Shown here: one piece after another, positions 300-49,445 of the stretch
How positions within the stretch are numbered: position 1 is the first letter of the stretch
Layout: every line of letters starts with the position of its first letter
Origin: Tidjanibacter sp.
GTDB lineage: Bacteria > Bacteroidota > Bacteroidia > Bacteroidales > Rikenellaceae
Direction of reading: 5' to 3'
Assembly: GCA_017466345.1 (NCBI GenBank)
Contig: JAFTUI010000017.1
Span: 62,001-126,000 of the forward strand
DNA length: 64,000 nt
Position numbers and translations under genes: made by a program
Notes under the pieces: generated by a model
Told to the model about the DNA's origin: nothing
Database searches by the model: none
The model's input: only the letters and a program-made list of their open reading frames with translations

Positions 300-700
300 T
301 TCAAAGGCGGCTTCCTCATTTACGCTTAGTAAACTGCGGAGTCGCCTTCTTATTTCGCAAAAAATTCCCTCAGCGATATTCTACTCGCGTTAGGTCTTGG
401 GTTTGGCACAAAAATCCCTCCGTTCTCTGCATTTTTACCGCTTGGGGAAGGCAAACTGCGGACTCCGCTTTCTCGTATGCCTTGCATCCATCACGTTATC
501 TGCGTTTTTACGGTCGGGAGTATTCCCTGCACAAAAGCGTCACTCTGACGCCTCATTTACGCTTAGTAAACTGCGGAGCCGCCTTCTTATTTCGCAAAAA
601 ATTCCCTCAGCGATATTCTACTCGCTGCGTTTAACGTCTAACGTCAATAGCCCTAAGGCATATAGGGCATATAGGGCATATAAGGCTTGTGGGAGTTATG
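300..700. repeat. Composite extragenic element, copy 1 (hairpins, 7-mers, 9-mers)
   Basis: This gene-free stretch is built from repeats. A 75-bp block starting at CCTCATTTACGCTTAGTAAA (314-388) recurs at 551-625 with a single visible difference. Each block holds an inner palindrome TTTACgcttaGTAAA; the first lies in a longer hairpin with AAGGCG/CGCCTT arms (304-348). A TAACGTC heptamer pair (about 634-650) and a 9-mer array of the AGGGCATAT type (about 655-690) follow. The same order recurs at 36316-36640 and 48943-49280. No coding sequence is supported here. Confidence 0.8.
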
Positions 701-17115: not shown

Positions 17116-17190
17116 GGTTCCATAGTTCAACGGATAGAACGACAGTTTCCTAAACTGTAAATCTGGGTTCGATTCCCGGTGGGACTACCA
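17116..17190 (+). tRNA. tRNA-Arg (anticodon CCU)
   Basis: A 75-nt cloverleaf starts GGTTCCATAGTTCAACGGAT and ends with an encoded CCA. The anticodon arm is ACAGT / loop TTCCTAA / ACTGT, giving anticodon CCU, which reads AGG. The T arm is CTGGGTTCGATTCCCGG. The acceptor stem includes a G-U first pair. It follows plsX by 37 bp with no clear terminator between, so it may be co-transcribed. Its last 13 bases form part of a large palindrome described separately. Confidence 0.95.
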
Positions 17191-17235
17191 AAAAAGGAGT
17201 TAGCATTTGCTAACTCCTTTTTTGGTAGTCCCACC
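17178..17235. repeat. 58-nt perfect palindrome including tRNA-Arg 3' end
   Basis: GGTGGGACTACC plus AAAAAAGGAGTTAGCA (28 nt) is followed by TT and then by its exact reverse complement, ending GGTAGTCCCACC. The inner half (GGAGTTAGCA / TGCTAACTCC then TTTTTT) works as a tRNA terminator. The outer 12-13 bp duplicates the tRNA 3' end in inverted orientation, which a terminator does not need. Confidence 0.95.
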
Positions 17236-17430
17236 TCGTCTGCGATTTGTGGGTGTTTTCTGCGTTACGCTTGCGCTCGAAATGCTTATTTACGAAGCGT
17301 AAACTCCGCTTTCTTGCGCTACGCAAGCCTTGAAAACCCCTCACAAATCGCAGACGAGATTGCTTTGATGTTTCTCTGTATTTTTACTCCTAAGGATTAT
17401 AGGGCTTATAGGAGTTTAGGGAGTTTAGGG
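17235..17430. repeat. Composite extragenic element, copy 2
   Basis: Perfect 17-bp arms CTCGTCTGCGATTTGTG (17235-17251) and its complement (17342-17358) enclose nested shorter pairs (TGCGT/ACGCA; TTTACGAAGCGTAAA) related to the CATTTACGCTTAGTAAACTG core of copy 1. A run of 9-mer-like units (CCTAAGGATTATAGGGCTTA, then GGAGTTTAG variants) follows at about 17390-17430. No gene is seen in 17191-17475. Confidence 0.75.
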
Positions 17431-34931: not shown

Positions 34932-36314
34932 ATGACAGTACGAATCATTGATTTGCTCCGTTCCAAACCAGAGGGACAGGAGGTTGTTGTGAAAGGTTGG
35001 GTACGCACAAAACGCGGAAACAAAAACGTGGCGTTCATCGCTCTGAATGACGGTTCGACCATCAACAACATTCAGATTGTTGTCGATATGGCAACTGCCG
35101 ATGAGGCACTCTTGAAGGAGGTTACAACGGGTGCTTGCCTCTGTGTTAAGGGCGCACTTGTGGAGTCGGTAGGCTCTGGTCAGCCCGTAGAGGTGCAGGC
35201 AAAGGAGATAGAGATTTATGGTAAGGCAGATGGCGAGTACCCCTTGCAGAAGAAAGGACACTCGATGGAGTTCCTCCGCGACATCGCCTACCTGCGTCCC
35301 CGCACCAACACCTTCGGTGCAGTCTTCCGCATCCGCCACGCTATGGCTTATGCTATCCACAAGTTCTTCAACGACAAGGGCTTCTACTATTGGCACACCC
35401 CTCTCATTACCGCTTCGGACTGTGAGGGCGCAGGTGCAATGTTCAATGTCACCACTTTCGACCTCAATAATGTTCCCAAAGGCGAAGATGGCAAGGTAGA
35501 CTACTCGCAGGACTTCTTCGCACGTCAGACCTCGTTGACTGTTTCGGGACAATTGGAGGGCGAACTTGGTGCTCTCTCGCTCGGTCAAATCTACACCTTT
35601 GGTCCCACCTTCCGTGCCGAGAACTCCAACACTCCACGCCACTTGGCAGAGTTTTGGATGATTGAGCCCGAGATGGCATTCTACGACTTGGAGGATAATA
35701 TGGTGTTGGCAGAGGAGTTCATCAAATACTGCGTGCAGTACGCTCTGGATAACTGTATGGACGACCTTACGTTCCTCAACAATATGTTCGACAAAGAGCT
35801 TATCGAGCGACTCCGTGGTGTTGTGGCTTGCGACTTTGTAAGGCTCGACTACACCGAGGGTATCCGCATCCTCTCGGAGAGCGGCAAGAAGTTCGAGTTC
35901 CCCTGCACTTGGGGTTGCGACTTGCAGAGCGAGCACGAGCGTTATCTTGTTGAGGAGTACTTCAAGAAACCCGTCATCCTCATCAACTATCCTAAGGAGA
36001 TTAAGTCGTTCTATATGAAACAGAACGAGGACGGTAAGACTGTTCGCGCAATGGACGTACTCTTCCCCAAGATTGGCGAGATTATTGGCGGTAGCGAGCG
36101 CGAGGCAGACTACGCCAAACTCAACGCCATCATCGAGGAGCGCGGTATGAGCAAGGAGACCCTCTGGTGGTATCTCGACACCCGCCGTTGGGGTTCGGCA
36201 CCTCACAGTGGCTTCGGTCTTGGCTTTGAGCGTCTATTGTTGTTTGTGACGGGTATGGCTAACATTCGTGATGTGATTCCGTTCCCCCGCACTCCCAAAA
36301 ACGCCGAGTATTAA
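34932..36314 (+). CDS. asnS: Asparaginyl-tRNA synthetase
   Basis: Class II aminoacyl-tRNA synthetase charging tRNA-Asn; 460 residues. An N-terminal OB anticodon-binding domain ([20 protein letters not shown]) precedes the catalytic domain with [20 protein letters not shown] (motif 2) and [20 protein letters not shown] (motif 3). The segment [13 protein letters not shown] near residue 160 is characteristic of AsnRS. A composite hairpin element begins at the stop codon and may serve as its terminator. Confidence 0.97.
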
Positions 36315-36315
36315 T

Positions 36316-36645
36316 GAATGTATCTCGTGGGTGATTTTTGCACCAACCATCGCATCGCAAGTTCCTCATTTACGTCCTGTAAACTGCGGACTTGCTCGCT
36401 CGGTTGGCACAAAAATCCCTCCACGATATAGCATTCATTGCATCTGCGGCACGATATGCACTCGCGGAGAAATTGGAAATTATGGTGCAGGCTACGCCTG
36501 CGAGTATTTTATCCCTCCCCTATTAGGGGAGCAGAATAGGAAGGACAGGAACATTAAGGTCATTAAAGCCCTTAAACTCCTATAAGCCCTATAAGCCTTA
36601 GGACTATTGACGTTAGGCGTTAGACGTTAAACGTCAGCCCAAAAC
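36316..36645. repeat. Composite extragenic element, copy 3
   Basis: Nested arms (GAATG...CATTC; TCGTGG...CCACGA; GATTTTTG...CAAAAATC; CCAACC...GGTTGG; GCAAGT...ACTTGC) enclose CCTCATTTACGTCCTGTAAA, the family core, giving a palindrome over 36316-36436. Small hairpins (GCAGGCTACGCCTGC; CTCCCCTATTAGGGGAG) follow. Then come 9-mer units (CTCCTATAAGCCCTATAAGC) and TTAGACG heptamers in opposite orientation to copies 1 and 4 (36540-36640). No gene is seen in 36315-36716. Confidence 0.8.
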
Positions 36646-40189: not shown

Positions 40190-40265
40190 TGGAGGTCTAA
40201 TGTCTAACGTCTAACGTCAATAGGCCTAAGGCTTATGGGAGATATGGGAGATATGAGAGATATGA
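40190..40265. repeat. 7-mer/9-mer arrays (TCTAACG; GGGAGATAT)
   Basis: GTCTAATGTCTAACGTCTAA, then the junction CGTCAATAGGCCTAAGGCTT, then 9-mers GGGAGATAT/GAGAGATAT repeat. This is the array half of the composite element without the hairpin half. The rest of 39990-40402 holds element B and another heptamer array but no gene. Confidence 0.8.
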
Positions 40266-41484: not shown

Positions 41485-41612
41485 ATTGAAAATTGAAAAT
41501 TTAAAATTGAAAATTCAGAGTTGAAAGTTGAAAGTTTTCTCATAACTCCCATAACTCCCATAACTCTCATAAGCCTTAGGACTATTGACGTTAGACGTTA
41601 GACGTTAGACAA
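41485..41612. repeat. Heptamer and 9-mer arrays between chrA pair and rsmE
   Basis: AAAATTG and AAAGTTG units (41485-41535), then CATAACTCC 9-mers, then CTTAGGACTATTGACGTTAG followed by ACGTTAG heptamers. It is in reverse orientation relative to copies 1 and 4 and ends 10 bp before the rsmE stop. Confidence 0.8.
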
Positions 41613-47894: not shown

Positions 47895-48944
47895 ATGAAG
47901 TTATCGCACTACAACTACAACTTCTCTCCCGAACTCCTTGCACACTATCCCGCCGAACATCGTGACGAGTCGCGTATGCTCGTGCTCCACCGCAAAACGG
48001 GCGAAATAGAGCACAAACTCTTCAAGGATATTATCAACTACTTCGAGGAGGATGATGTATTCATTCTCAACAACACCAAGGTCTTCCCCGCACGCCTCTA
48101 TGGTAACAAGGAGAAAACCGGTGCCGAGATTGAGATTTTCCTGCTCCGAGAGCTCAACAAAGACCTCCGTTTGTGGGATGTGCTGGTTGAGCCCGCACGC
48201 AAAATCCGCATCGGCAATAAACTCTACTTCGGTGAGGATGACGCTCTGGTGGCTGAGGTTATCGACAACACAACCTCTCGTGGTCGCACCCTCCGCTTCC
48301 TCTATGACGGCTCCTACGAGGAGTTCCGCGAGGTGCTTGCCCAAATGGGCGAAACACCACTGCCTCGCTGGGTGAGAGAAAAAGTTGAAGAGTTGGACGA
48401 AGAGCGATACCAAACCATCTACGCAAAGGTGGAGGGCGCAGTGGCTGCTCCTACGGCAGGTCTGCACTTCTCGAAACACCTCCTAAAACGTATGGAAATC
48501 AAGGGTATAGACACTGCCGAAATTACCCTCCACGTTGGCTTGGGTAACTTCCGCACCGTAGATGTTGAGGACCTTACGAAACATAAGATGGACTCCGAGC
48601 AGATTTTCATTCCTGCGGCTACTGCCGAGCGTGTAAATCGTGCTAAGCAGAGCGGTCATCGTGTATGCGCCATCGGTACCACCGTACAGCGCACCATTGA
48701 GTCCTCCGTATCGACTAACGGTATGCTCAAACCCTATGAGGGTTGGACAAATAAGTTCATCTTCGCGCCCTACGAGTTCAGTGTTGCCGACTCTATGGTC
48801 AGCAACTTCCACCTCCCCGGCTCCACACAGCTGATGATGGTTGCAGCTTTTGGCGGTTACGACAATGTTATGAACGCCTACAAGGTTGCCATTGAAGAGG
48901 GGTATAGGTTCGGGACTTACGGTGACGCTATGCTGATATTATAA
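47895..48944 (+). CDS. queA: S-adenosylmethionine:tRNA ribosyltransferase-isomerase
   Basis: QueA transfers and isomerises the ribosyl part of SAM onto preQ1 in tRNA, the penultimate step to queuosine. The 349-residue protein starts [20 protein letters not shown] and has [33 protein letters not shown] and [12 protein letters not shown], ending in [20 protein letters not shown]. Its stop codon overlaps the first base of a long hairpin with AAAAAACGCA/TGCGTTTTTT arms. Confidence 0.97.
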
Positions 48945-49280
48945 AAAACGCATATAAGCGGCGTCTTTGGCGTTGCACCGCGATAAACCTCTGCCTCATT
49001 TACGCTTAGTAAACTCGGCAGAGGTTTTCTTGTGCGCCTAAAATACGCTCGCTTCTCTGCGTTTTTTGAAAAAACACATCTAACGGGTGCTTTTTGCACC
49101 AAAATTCAGAGAGCGGACTCCTCATTTGCGCAAAGCAAACTTCGGAGCCCGCTCCTTCTTTTGGCACAAAAATCCCTCCGTTATCTGCATTTTTTAGGTC
49201 TAACGTCTAACGTCTAACGTCTAACGTCTAACGTCAATAGTCCTAAGGCTTATGGGGCTTATAGGGCTTATAGGGCTTAT
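48943..49280. repeat. Composite extragenic element, copy 4
   Basis: Arms AAAAAACGCA (48943-48952) and TGCGTTTTTT (49058-49067) enclose a hairpin AAACCTCTGCC...GGCAGAGGTTT (48985-49027) whose loop is the family core CATTTACGCTTAGTAAACT. A second hairpin, GAGCGG...CCGCTC (49111-49154), has a variant core and is followed by GGCACAAAAATCCCTCCGTT, also found at 406-425. Five tandem GTCTAAC units (49198-49232), CAATAGTCCTAAGGCTTA and TATAGGGCT units complete it. Confidence 0.85.
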
Positions 49281-49445
49281 AGTGTTGCGAGCAATGGCGA
49301 CACGATGACCCTTATTACGACGGCAGAGGGCGAATCTACCACTTCTACCATTGCGCAACTTGATGATACCACTCTTGTGATTGTTCAGGATATTGTGGAA
49401 GATGGTATGACAGTGTCTTCGCGAATGACATTGACCAGAGTGTAG
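49281..49445 (+). pseudogene. C-terminal remnant of a lipocalin-like lipoprotein gene
   Basis: Directly after the last TATAGGGCT unit, a frame reads SVASNGDTMTLITTAEGEST, TSTIAQLDDTTLVIVQDIVE and DGMTVSSRMTLTRV, then stops at TAG. The alternating strands with LDDTTLVI and a final RMTLTRV look like the last third of a lipocalin-like domain. No start codon, signal peptide or upstream part exists; the 9-mer array replaces it. It is followed by a good terminator, so it is probably the retained 3' end of a former gene. Confidence 0.7.

Follow-up and report, generated by a model that had tools for sequence, protein, structure and literature searches.

Four places in the window, by which we mean the whole 64,000-nucleotide stretch of the Tidjanibacter sp. 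contig analyzed here, carry hairpins with a nearly constant core and stems that differ in sequence and still pair. What kind of element these hairpins represent, and whether their pairing is maintained at the level of RNA or of DNA, are the questions addressed in this study.

The hairpin and its tandem module

The initial annotation described a core shared by the four intervals and flanking stems that differ but remain complementary, and both parts of this description were borne out. The 19-nt core was found exactly at 317-335, 554-572, and 48997-49015 in the window (0.01 occurrences expected by chance), and variants of it were found at 17289-17304 and 36369-36384. All four arm pairs quoted earlier were present, namely AAGGCG/CGCCTT (from 304), GCAAGT/ACTTGC (36357), GAGCGG/CCGCTC (49111), and AACCTCTGCC/GGCAGAGGTT (48986). 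We used a covariance model, R1, built from 82 copies (alignment A1), and the four intervals contained six matches to this model. The hairpins and the modules that accompany some of them are as follows:

261-397, + strand: hairpin element 1, directly after the TAG at 263-265 (R1, 113 bits)
498-634, + strand: second tandem hairpin, diverged or recombinant (R1, only 51 bits)
631-690, + strand: heptamer-like units, the joint CAATAGCCCTAAGG (645-658), and TATAGGGCA-type 9-mers
17232-17366, + strand: D-type hairpin element, 3' of a tRNA-Arg and its palindrome (R1, 101 bits)
36310-36447, + strand: A-type hairpin element, the outer arm of which (AATGAATG/CATTCATT) takes in part of the asnS stop region
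36560-36634, - strand: inverted composite module of heptamer-like units, the joint CAATAGTCCTAAGG (36596-36609), and 9-mers
48940-49075, + strand: C-type hairpin element starting at the TAA of the gene at 47895-48944; found by the whole-genome model scan only, since it overlaps 49066-49203 and the window scan lists one of the two
49066-49203, + strand: A-type hairpin element, second of a tandem
49199-49283, + strand: five TCTAACG heptamers, the joint CAATAGTCCTAAGG (49235-49248), and TATAGGGCT-type 9-mers

The core proved to be the tip of one long imperfect hairpin of approximately 51 bp over approximately 130 nt, with a mean energy of -50 kcal/mol (82 copies, 51-pair structure). The conserved bulged tip is CTCATTTRCGNNNAGYAAACTGCGG; its bulged C and its T/C mismatch occur in at least 90% of the aligned copies. 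The first base of the apical loop is G in 81 of 82 copies, its last base is A in 73, and one inner pair exists in two states, A-T in 51 copies and G-C in 30. The apical loop might conceivably be a protein site in the manner of boxB. Below the tip, the arms fall into types that we named A, B, C, and D, which have apparently also recombined with one another; for the outermost arms, AAAAACGCAT/ATGCGTTTTT and GCGAG.../...CTCGC are frequent sequences. Element-like hairpins with other tips were observed at L310 2349-2483 (- strand), L241, and L242 (CATAG-GCAA-CTATG, CATAC-AGCAA-GTATG, and CATAC-ATAGA-GTATG); the tip may therefore be exchanged as a whole. Directly before the D-type element of the window, 17178-17235 forms a 28-bp perfect palindrome, in which the last bases of the tRNA-Arg (GGTGGGACTACC) and the terminator arm that follows them recur in inverted form immediately afterwards.

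The genome comprises 1,824,793 bases in 30 contigs (95.6% complete, 4.09% contamination). A search with the 19-nt core, allowing up to 3 mismatches, returned 74 matches in this genome and none for the reversed pattern, and R1 identified at least 143 matches at E<=0.001 in the 1.82 Mb, a lower bound because 150 of 516 candidates were scored. Alignment A1 contains 82 of 83 references, the one left out being an antisense match that overlaps another copy (L052); a larger alignment, A3, covers the same stretches with 135 matches, short of the 143, and includes at least one antisense match. The flanks of at least four copies recur in another contig (C19:127490 and C27:26655 are examples), and the count of distinct copies is accordingly slightly lower. 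Three contig pairs of this genome (C17/C26, C19/C27, and C25/C28) have identical element flanks, which suggests redundant contigs in the assembly. Only one copy overlaps a predicted gene, and the family is otherwise intergenic. Eight 3' halves and four 5' halves were found, compared with 103 full copies; solo halves as signs of hairpin cleavage were too few, and this idea was dropped. The family recognized from four intervals thus extends beyond them, and the earlier failure to name a known class for it agrees with our comparison against Rfam 15, in which tRNA alone reached its threshold in the window and in five element loci and no family did so over the elements. The MIR5638 microRNA model gave 23.1 bits over an Anaerophaga element, against a cut-off of 500.

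The initial annotation also claimed that the hairpins are followed by TCTAACG heptamers, a joint, and 9-mers in a fixed order and in either orientation. The order holds, and the inverted module of the copy at 36316 confirms that either orientation occurs; the claim fails for the copy at 17235, which has only ACTCCTAAGGATTATAGGGC and lacks the heptamers and the exact joint. In the 432 kb around the elements, 64 joints were found with at most one mismatch, compared with none for the reversed control; a TCTAACG-like heptamer stands before 61 of them and a TATAGGG-like unit after 51, so that the order TCTAACG, CAATAGTCCTAAGG, TATAGGG is kept. An element lies within 700 nt of 57 joints, and the other seven are further away. 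Because 51 of the 57 are downstream in the same orientation as the element and only six are inverted (five downstream and one upstream), a shared orientation predominates. The module is found with only some of the hairpins. It also seems to occur alone, since joints CAATAGNCCTAAGG were observed at 40218-40231 (+) and 41574-41587 (-), in a part of the window with no model match.

Placement behind stop codons

The placement of the copies relative to genes was analyzed with our own simple dicodon gene finder, with no annotation. The results revealed that the upstream gene has the orientation of the element in 128 of 143 copies (binomial p 1.5e-23) and the opposite orientation in 15. Among the 128, 89 start at most 12 nt from the stop codon, 15 start at 13-30 nt, and 24 start further away, 19 of these 24 being the second or third copy of a tandem array. 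The most frequent distance from stop to element is 3 nt (34 copies), negative values meaning that the stop lies inside the arm. For the lead copies with both neighbours known, 84 of 113 start within 12 nt of the stop, whereas 2000 runs with positions and strands drawn at random in the same gaps gave 5.0 on average and never more than 13. The stops at the 105 gene ends that carry an element are 59 TAA, 43 TAG, and 3 TGA; those of the predicted genes in the same stretches are 169 TAA, 111 TAG, and 37 TGA. A similar placement was found in other genomes, where 70 of 84 copies have the orientation of the gene and 50 of these start within 12 nt of the stop (87 of 140 hits were taken, three of them without an upstream gene, and the hits include near relatives and are not all independent). 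This placement is a new fact, as the earlier description held neither the anchoring at stop codons nor the Anaerophaga form presented below. We infer that the polarity must involve transcription, through either selection on 3' ends or the way in which copies arrive. Small palindromic repeats are frequent in bacterial genomes; with well over 100 copies within a few bases of stop codons and in one direction, whether such repeats are parasites or adopted 3'-end signals becomes directly testable.

Orthologous gene ends were compared among the matches listed. The same stop codon can carry another element type: the B-type copy at C1:20412 corresponds to A-type copies in L083, L116, and L211. The element-free orthologue L092 has an ordinary terminator at the same spot (TAA-AAAAACGCGGGCTAC-AAATCA-GTAGCCCGCGTTTTTTT); several other element-free orthologues listed have a hairpin near the stop, and in others no hairpin lies at such a short distance from it. 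The comparison of the genome with these orthologues yielded no clean empty site with a duplication, and no target duplication was established in the genome itself.

These observations bear on the explanation that the elements are oversized intrinsic terminators or stabilizers of mRNA 3' ends, selected as RNA and held to a common sequence by gene conversion, with mobility not the main factor. The polarity, the position a few nucleotides behind the stop, and the ordinary A-tract/T-tract terminator at the same spot in L092 are consistent with this explanation, as are the constant ends of the apical loop (G first in 81 and A last in 73 of 82 copies). A stretch of TTTT is present at the 3' side of 72 of 137 full copies, which on this sequence feature could be intrinsic terminators, and an A-tract and a T-tract occur together in 50 of 137. 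The other 65 copies have no T-tract, and 7 of 23 genus-mates have no match to the model. Moreover, a terminator does not need a conserved tip in common with Anaerophaga, and G·T pairs are not enriched over A·C in the stems, as described in the next section. On this evidence, we consider it unlikely that termination or stabilization selected in RNA accounts for the family.

Origin of the complementarity between the arms

Covariation was analyzed with the 51-pair structure derived by folding. Standard pairs occupy 78.7% of the cells, compared with 64.2% when partners were shuffled, and fall to 38-46% when partners were slid by 1-3 columns. Changes on both sides were found in 681 cells, compared with 262 in the shuffles, and in 42 of the 51 pairs, compared with 36.5. 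In the orthologous interval between asnS and rpoN, the arms differ yet match in G000 (the genome of the window), G005, and G020, reading GCAAGTT/ACTTGC, GCAACAT/GTGTTGC, and GTAAGTT/ACTTAC, respectively. The compensatory change claimed from the four intervals is therefore a genome-wide property of the stems, and the asnS end shows it at one orthologous place. At the same gene end, loci L230, L232, and L233 of genus-mates were observed to carry short purine-rich repeats in tandem with an inverted complementary copy behind them, and these minisatellites form long hairpins there.

The initial annotation concluded that the folded form is probably selected. Selection on the sense RNA predicts that G·T pairs should outnumber A·C mismatches. 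At positions with at least 60% Watson-Crick pairs, we counted 94 G·T and 140 A·C among 2939 cells in A1, and 140 G·T and 223 A·C among 5008 cells in A3; at the 80% level, the counts were 42 and 48 in A1 and 53 and 53 in A3. Given that these cells are statistically dependent and that an inherited A·C in a few columns has a strong influence, the counts are read as no preference for the sense fold and not as proof of a fold of the other strand. If RNA was meant, the conclusion of a selected fold is not supported by this result, since G·T is no commoner than A·C in the sense strand. The finding further suggests that strong covariation need not mean RNA, and palindromes maintained or rewritten as DNA could mislead scans for structured RNAs.

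We further analyzed the order in which the stems change and the relation of the outer arms to the host gene. Close pairs of copies in A3 differ first by one-sided changes, and two-sided Watson-Crick changes increase with divergence, from 4 of 53 changed pairs at 9-12 differences to 112 of 359 at 19-24, so the process does not appear to be purely one-step rewriting. Within a copy, the duplex between the outer 5' and 3' flanks has a mean of -29.1 kcal/mol, compared with -21.5 kcal/mol for swapped flanks (102 copies); in only 18 of the 102 does no other copy offer a better partner. Among the matches listed, some arms extend across the stop codon and into the final codons of the gene, as at C25:102016, where gccAAAAAAGCATAACACGAG pairs with CTCGTGTTATGCTTTTTTGG. 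A reverse-complement match of at least 9 nt between the last 24 nt of the gene and the downstream sequence was found at 18 of 251 gene ends, compared with 6.0 expected from swapped ends. Matches of at least 12 nt were found at five gene ends, compared with 0.7 expected, and an element lies inside in three of the five.

A mutational origin would explain part of this pattern: fold-back template switching at replication would repeatedly rewrite one arm after the sequence of the other and extend hairpins at 3' ends into the adjoining gene, and complementarity would be a by-product. The locus-specific outer arms, the arms that run through stops into codons, and the lack of a preference for G·T over A·C all point in this direction, and the 28-bp perfect palindrome, in which the 3' end of the tRNA-Arg recurs inverted behind its terminator, is a further case of the kind. 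Repeated correction of this type would, however, erase the bulged C and the T/C mismatch that at least 90% of the copies retain. Few two-sided changes separate the closest copies, and their share grows with divergence; the own partner arm is seldom the best one, and template switching leaves both the anchoring at stops and the common tip unexplained. As an explanation of the whole family we therefore regard it as possible but rather doubtful. The lack of a G·T preference and the host-derived arms nevertheless suggest that copying at the DNA level contributes to the complementarity, and the conserved bulges indicate that such copying is not the whole story. In a combined scenario, a mobile hairpin would specifically colonize the base after stop codons, or the terminator hairpin at that place, in the direction of the gene, and its arms would be re-templated from the host gene end, which would give each gene a custom 3' hairpin that includes the stop; we judge this scenario improbable.

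Distribution, mobility, and related elements

Matches to the model were found in 16 of 23 genus-mates (15 with at least 14 and one with a single match) and in none of the other seven; these numbers are lower bounds, with at most 54 candidates scored per genome. Outside the genus, three matches were found in one of 13 genomes that represent other genera of the family, and 7 of 24 genomes from other families of the order had 1-6 each. A phylum-wide search of 395 genomes, our own included, revealed four others with one core hit each and four with one control hit. Among named genome contigs, at least 109 stretches had matches; the 80 titles listed are mostly Rikenellaceae, Alistipes, Tidjanibacter, Bacteroidaceae, and Muribaculaceae, many of them from ruminant gut, and the remainder includes Anaerophaga, two Bacteroidota assemblies whose source is not stated, and Pseudoalteromonas. 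The Pseudoalteromonas match (L112 2601-2733, - strand, in the gammaproteobacterium Pseudoalteromonas sp. T1lg48) scored 42.7 bits and lies 10 nt behind a stop codon; spread beyond the phylum is unproven, as this genome has two pattern hits and one control hit. Viral contigs gave no exact match of one core pattern, and carriage by phages was set aside on this result.

Anaerophaga thermohalophila (Marinilabiliales) yielded 395 core hits with at most 2 mismatches and no control hit. In the approximately dozen copies that we examined, the tip and D-type arms lie inside an element with the inverted-repeat ends AGTGTCTGTCCATAAAGT ... GCACT. Where both ends were found, AGTGTCTGTCC...GCACT, the length was 164-166 bp; three more copies had no recognisable 3' end. 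Flanking 4-mers, which we read as target duplications, were identical in 7 of 9 evaluable copies, compared with 11 of 72 swapped combinations. The Anaerophaga copies lie in either orientation to neighbouring genes, and one (L375) starts at a stop codon in the direction of its gene, unlike the rest. This link is one of similarity of the tip and the D-type arms, not of phylogeny, and the Anaerophaga inverted repeat was absent from the element regions of our genome. MITEs are defined by terminal inverted repeats, a length of 50-1000 bp, and the lack of a transposase gene; the elements of our genome measure approximately 130 nt, and their outer arms pair towards the ends. They are likewise intergenic and of high copy number (at least 143).

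On the basis of these findings, we hold with moderate confidence that the family is a MITE-like, small, non-autonomous mobile hairpin that became adapted as a 3'-end element abutting stop codons. The hairpin would have multiplied in this Rikenellaceae lineage, where it would now mostly be the first thing after the stop and in the direction of the gene, and the far relative Anaerophaga would retain the classic MITE form. The element may act at the transcript 3' end, by terminating transcription or protecting the end, and such a role would account for the polarity. Copies may spread, or one may supplant another, at terminator-like sites adjacent to stops, and the complementarity of the arms would be kept partly by rewriting at the DNA level (template switching or conversion) and not by selection on RNA alone. 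The hairpin would thus be kept mostly where it is useful, or harmless, as a 3' end directly behind a stop. The supporting observations are the family itself, its copy number, the covarying arms, the polarity, the anchoring at stops, the locus-specific outer arms, the patchy distribution, and the repeats and duplications in Anaerophaga. Against this reading stands the absence, in our genome, of an established target duplication, a clean empty site, the Anaerophaga repeat in the element regions, and any Y1_Tnp or DDE_Tnp_1 match. Further points against it are the T-tract in only 72 of 137 copies, the G·T counts, which do not exceed those of A·C and weaken a role as RNA, the 15 of 143 copies in the opposite orientation, the link to Anaerophaga by similarity and not by phylogeny, and the contamination and repeated flanks of the assembly.

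We searched for an enzyme that could mobilize the hairpin in the families Y1_Tnp, RVT_1, and DDE_Tnp_1. The initial annotation had proposed a search for a RAYT-like or other transposase; no Y1_Tnp was found in our genome, although the E. coli control was detected, and the single positive among 24 genus genomes (G007) has no elements. RVT_1 was found once in our genome and in 4 of 24 genus genomes (G000, G005, G013, and G019), all with elements. A reverse transcriptase was nevertheless rejected as the enzyme: 12 of the 16 element-rich genomes (our own and 15 genus-mates) lack RVT_1, which therefore does not explain the family. DDE_Tnp_1 was absent from G000, G005, and G014; the two found in Anaerophaga lie at loci without the repeat and were set aside as partners.

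The palindrome with a conserved asymmetric bulged tip, the high copy number, and the intergenic position would also fit single-strand DNA elements of the REP or IS200/IS605 kind, mobilized by a Y1 (HUH) transposase. Two-ended inverted repeats with 4-bp duplications, as found in the Anaerophaga copies, are not expected of Y1 transposition. Together with the Y1_Tnp results, on which a RAYT/IS200 origin was set aside, this makes movement by such an enzyme very improbable. REP palindromes are also 20-40 bp in size (PMC3733652, as far as its available text states), compared with approximately 51 pairs over approximately 130 nt here.

The open-access literature, a scope that leaves most subscription journals outside, yielded no description of this hairpin family. 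By their descriptions, of which the accessible parts were compared, the closest in kind are YPAL, BrickBuilt, SPRITE, and palindromic RNA candidates of Bacteroidetes. ERIC, RUP, and Correia/NEMIS are mobile intergenic palindromes of approximately 107-155 bp and resemble the hairpin in being palindromic and intergenic; they are described with terminal inverted repeats, target duplications, and TA at the termini, and the accessible description mentions no anchoring at stop codons (PMC2229807). YPAL/RU-2 of Yersinia is an abundant intergenic palindrome of approximately 168 bp, the targets of which span or adjoin dyad symmetry; it is said to be expressed with upstream genes, and its mobility was deduced from empty and filled sites (PMC2229807). 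Our hairpin is likewise palindromic, abundant, and intergenic. YPAL/RU-2 differs in its internal inverted repeats and its target duplications of 3-26 bp (PMC2229807), none of which was established in our genome. It belongs to another phylum, and the same accessible description mentions neither covarying arm types nor anchoring at stops (PMC2229807), by which we set it apart.

SPRITE of Streptococcus pneumoniae is a dispersed terminator-like repeat that clusters with other repeats, as the hairpin does (PMC10969869, compared by the accessible description); it belongs to another phylum, and only 72 of 137 of our copies have a T-tract. HMP2_4205 and HMP2_1032, structured-RNA candidates and predicted terminators, are Bacteroidetes palindromes of a similar kind, 106-132 bp long, for which the accessible description mentions neither dispersal by copying nor anchoring at stops (PMC8040213). 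BrickBuilt of Porphyromonas gingivalis is a MITE carrying a minisatellite (PMC4596501) and is intergenic (PMC10969869). Its inverted repeats resemble ISPg1 and ISPg9 (PMC4596501), in contrast to the lack of a partner here among the families searched, and our hairpin also occurs without the tandem module and is tied to stops, so that the two are set apart by the accessible descriptions. The composite of hairpin, heptamers, and 9-mers nevertheless resembles BrickBuilt in its phylum, its minisatellite, and its intergenic position.
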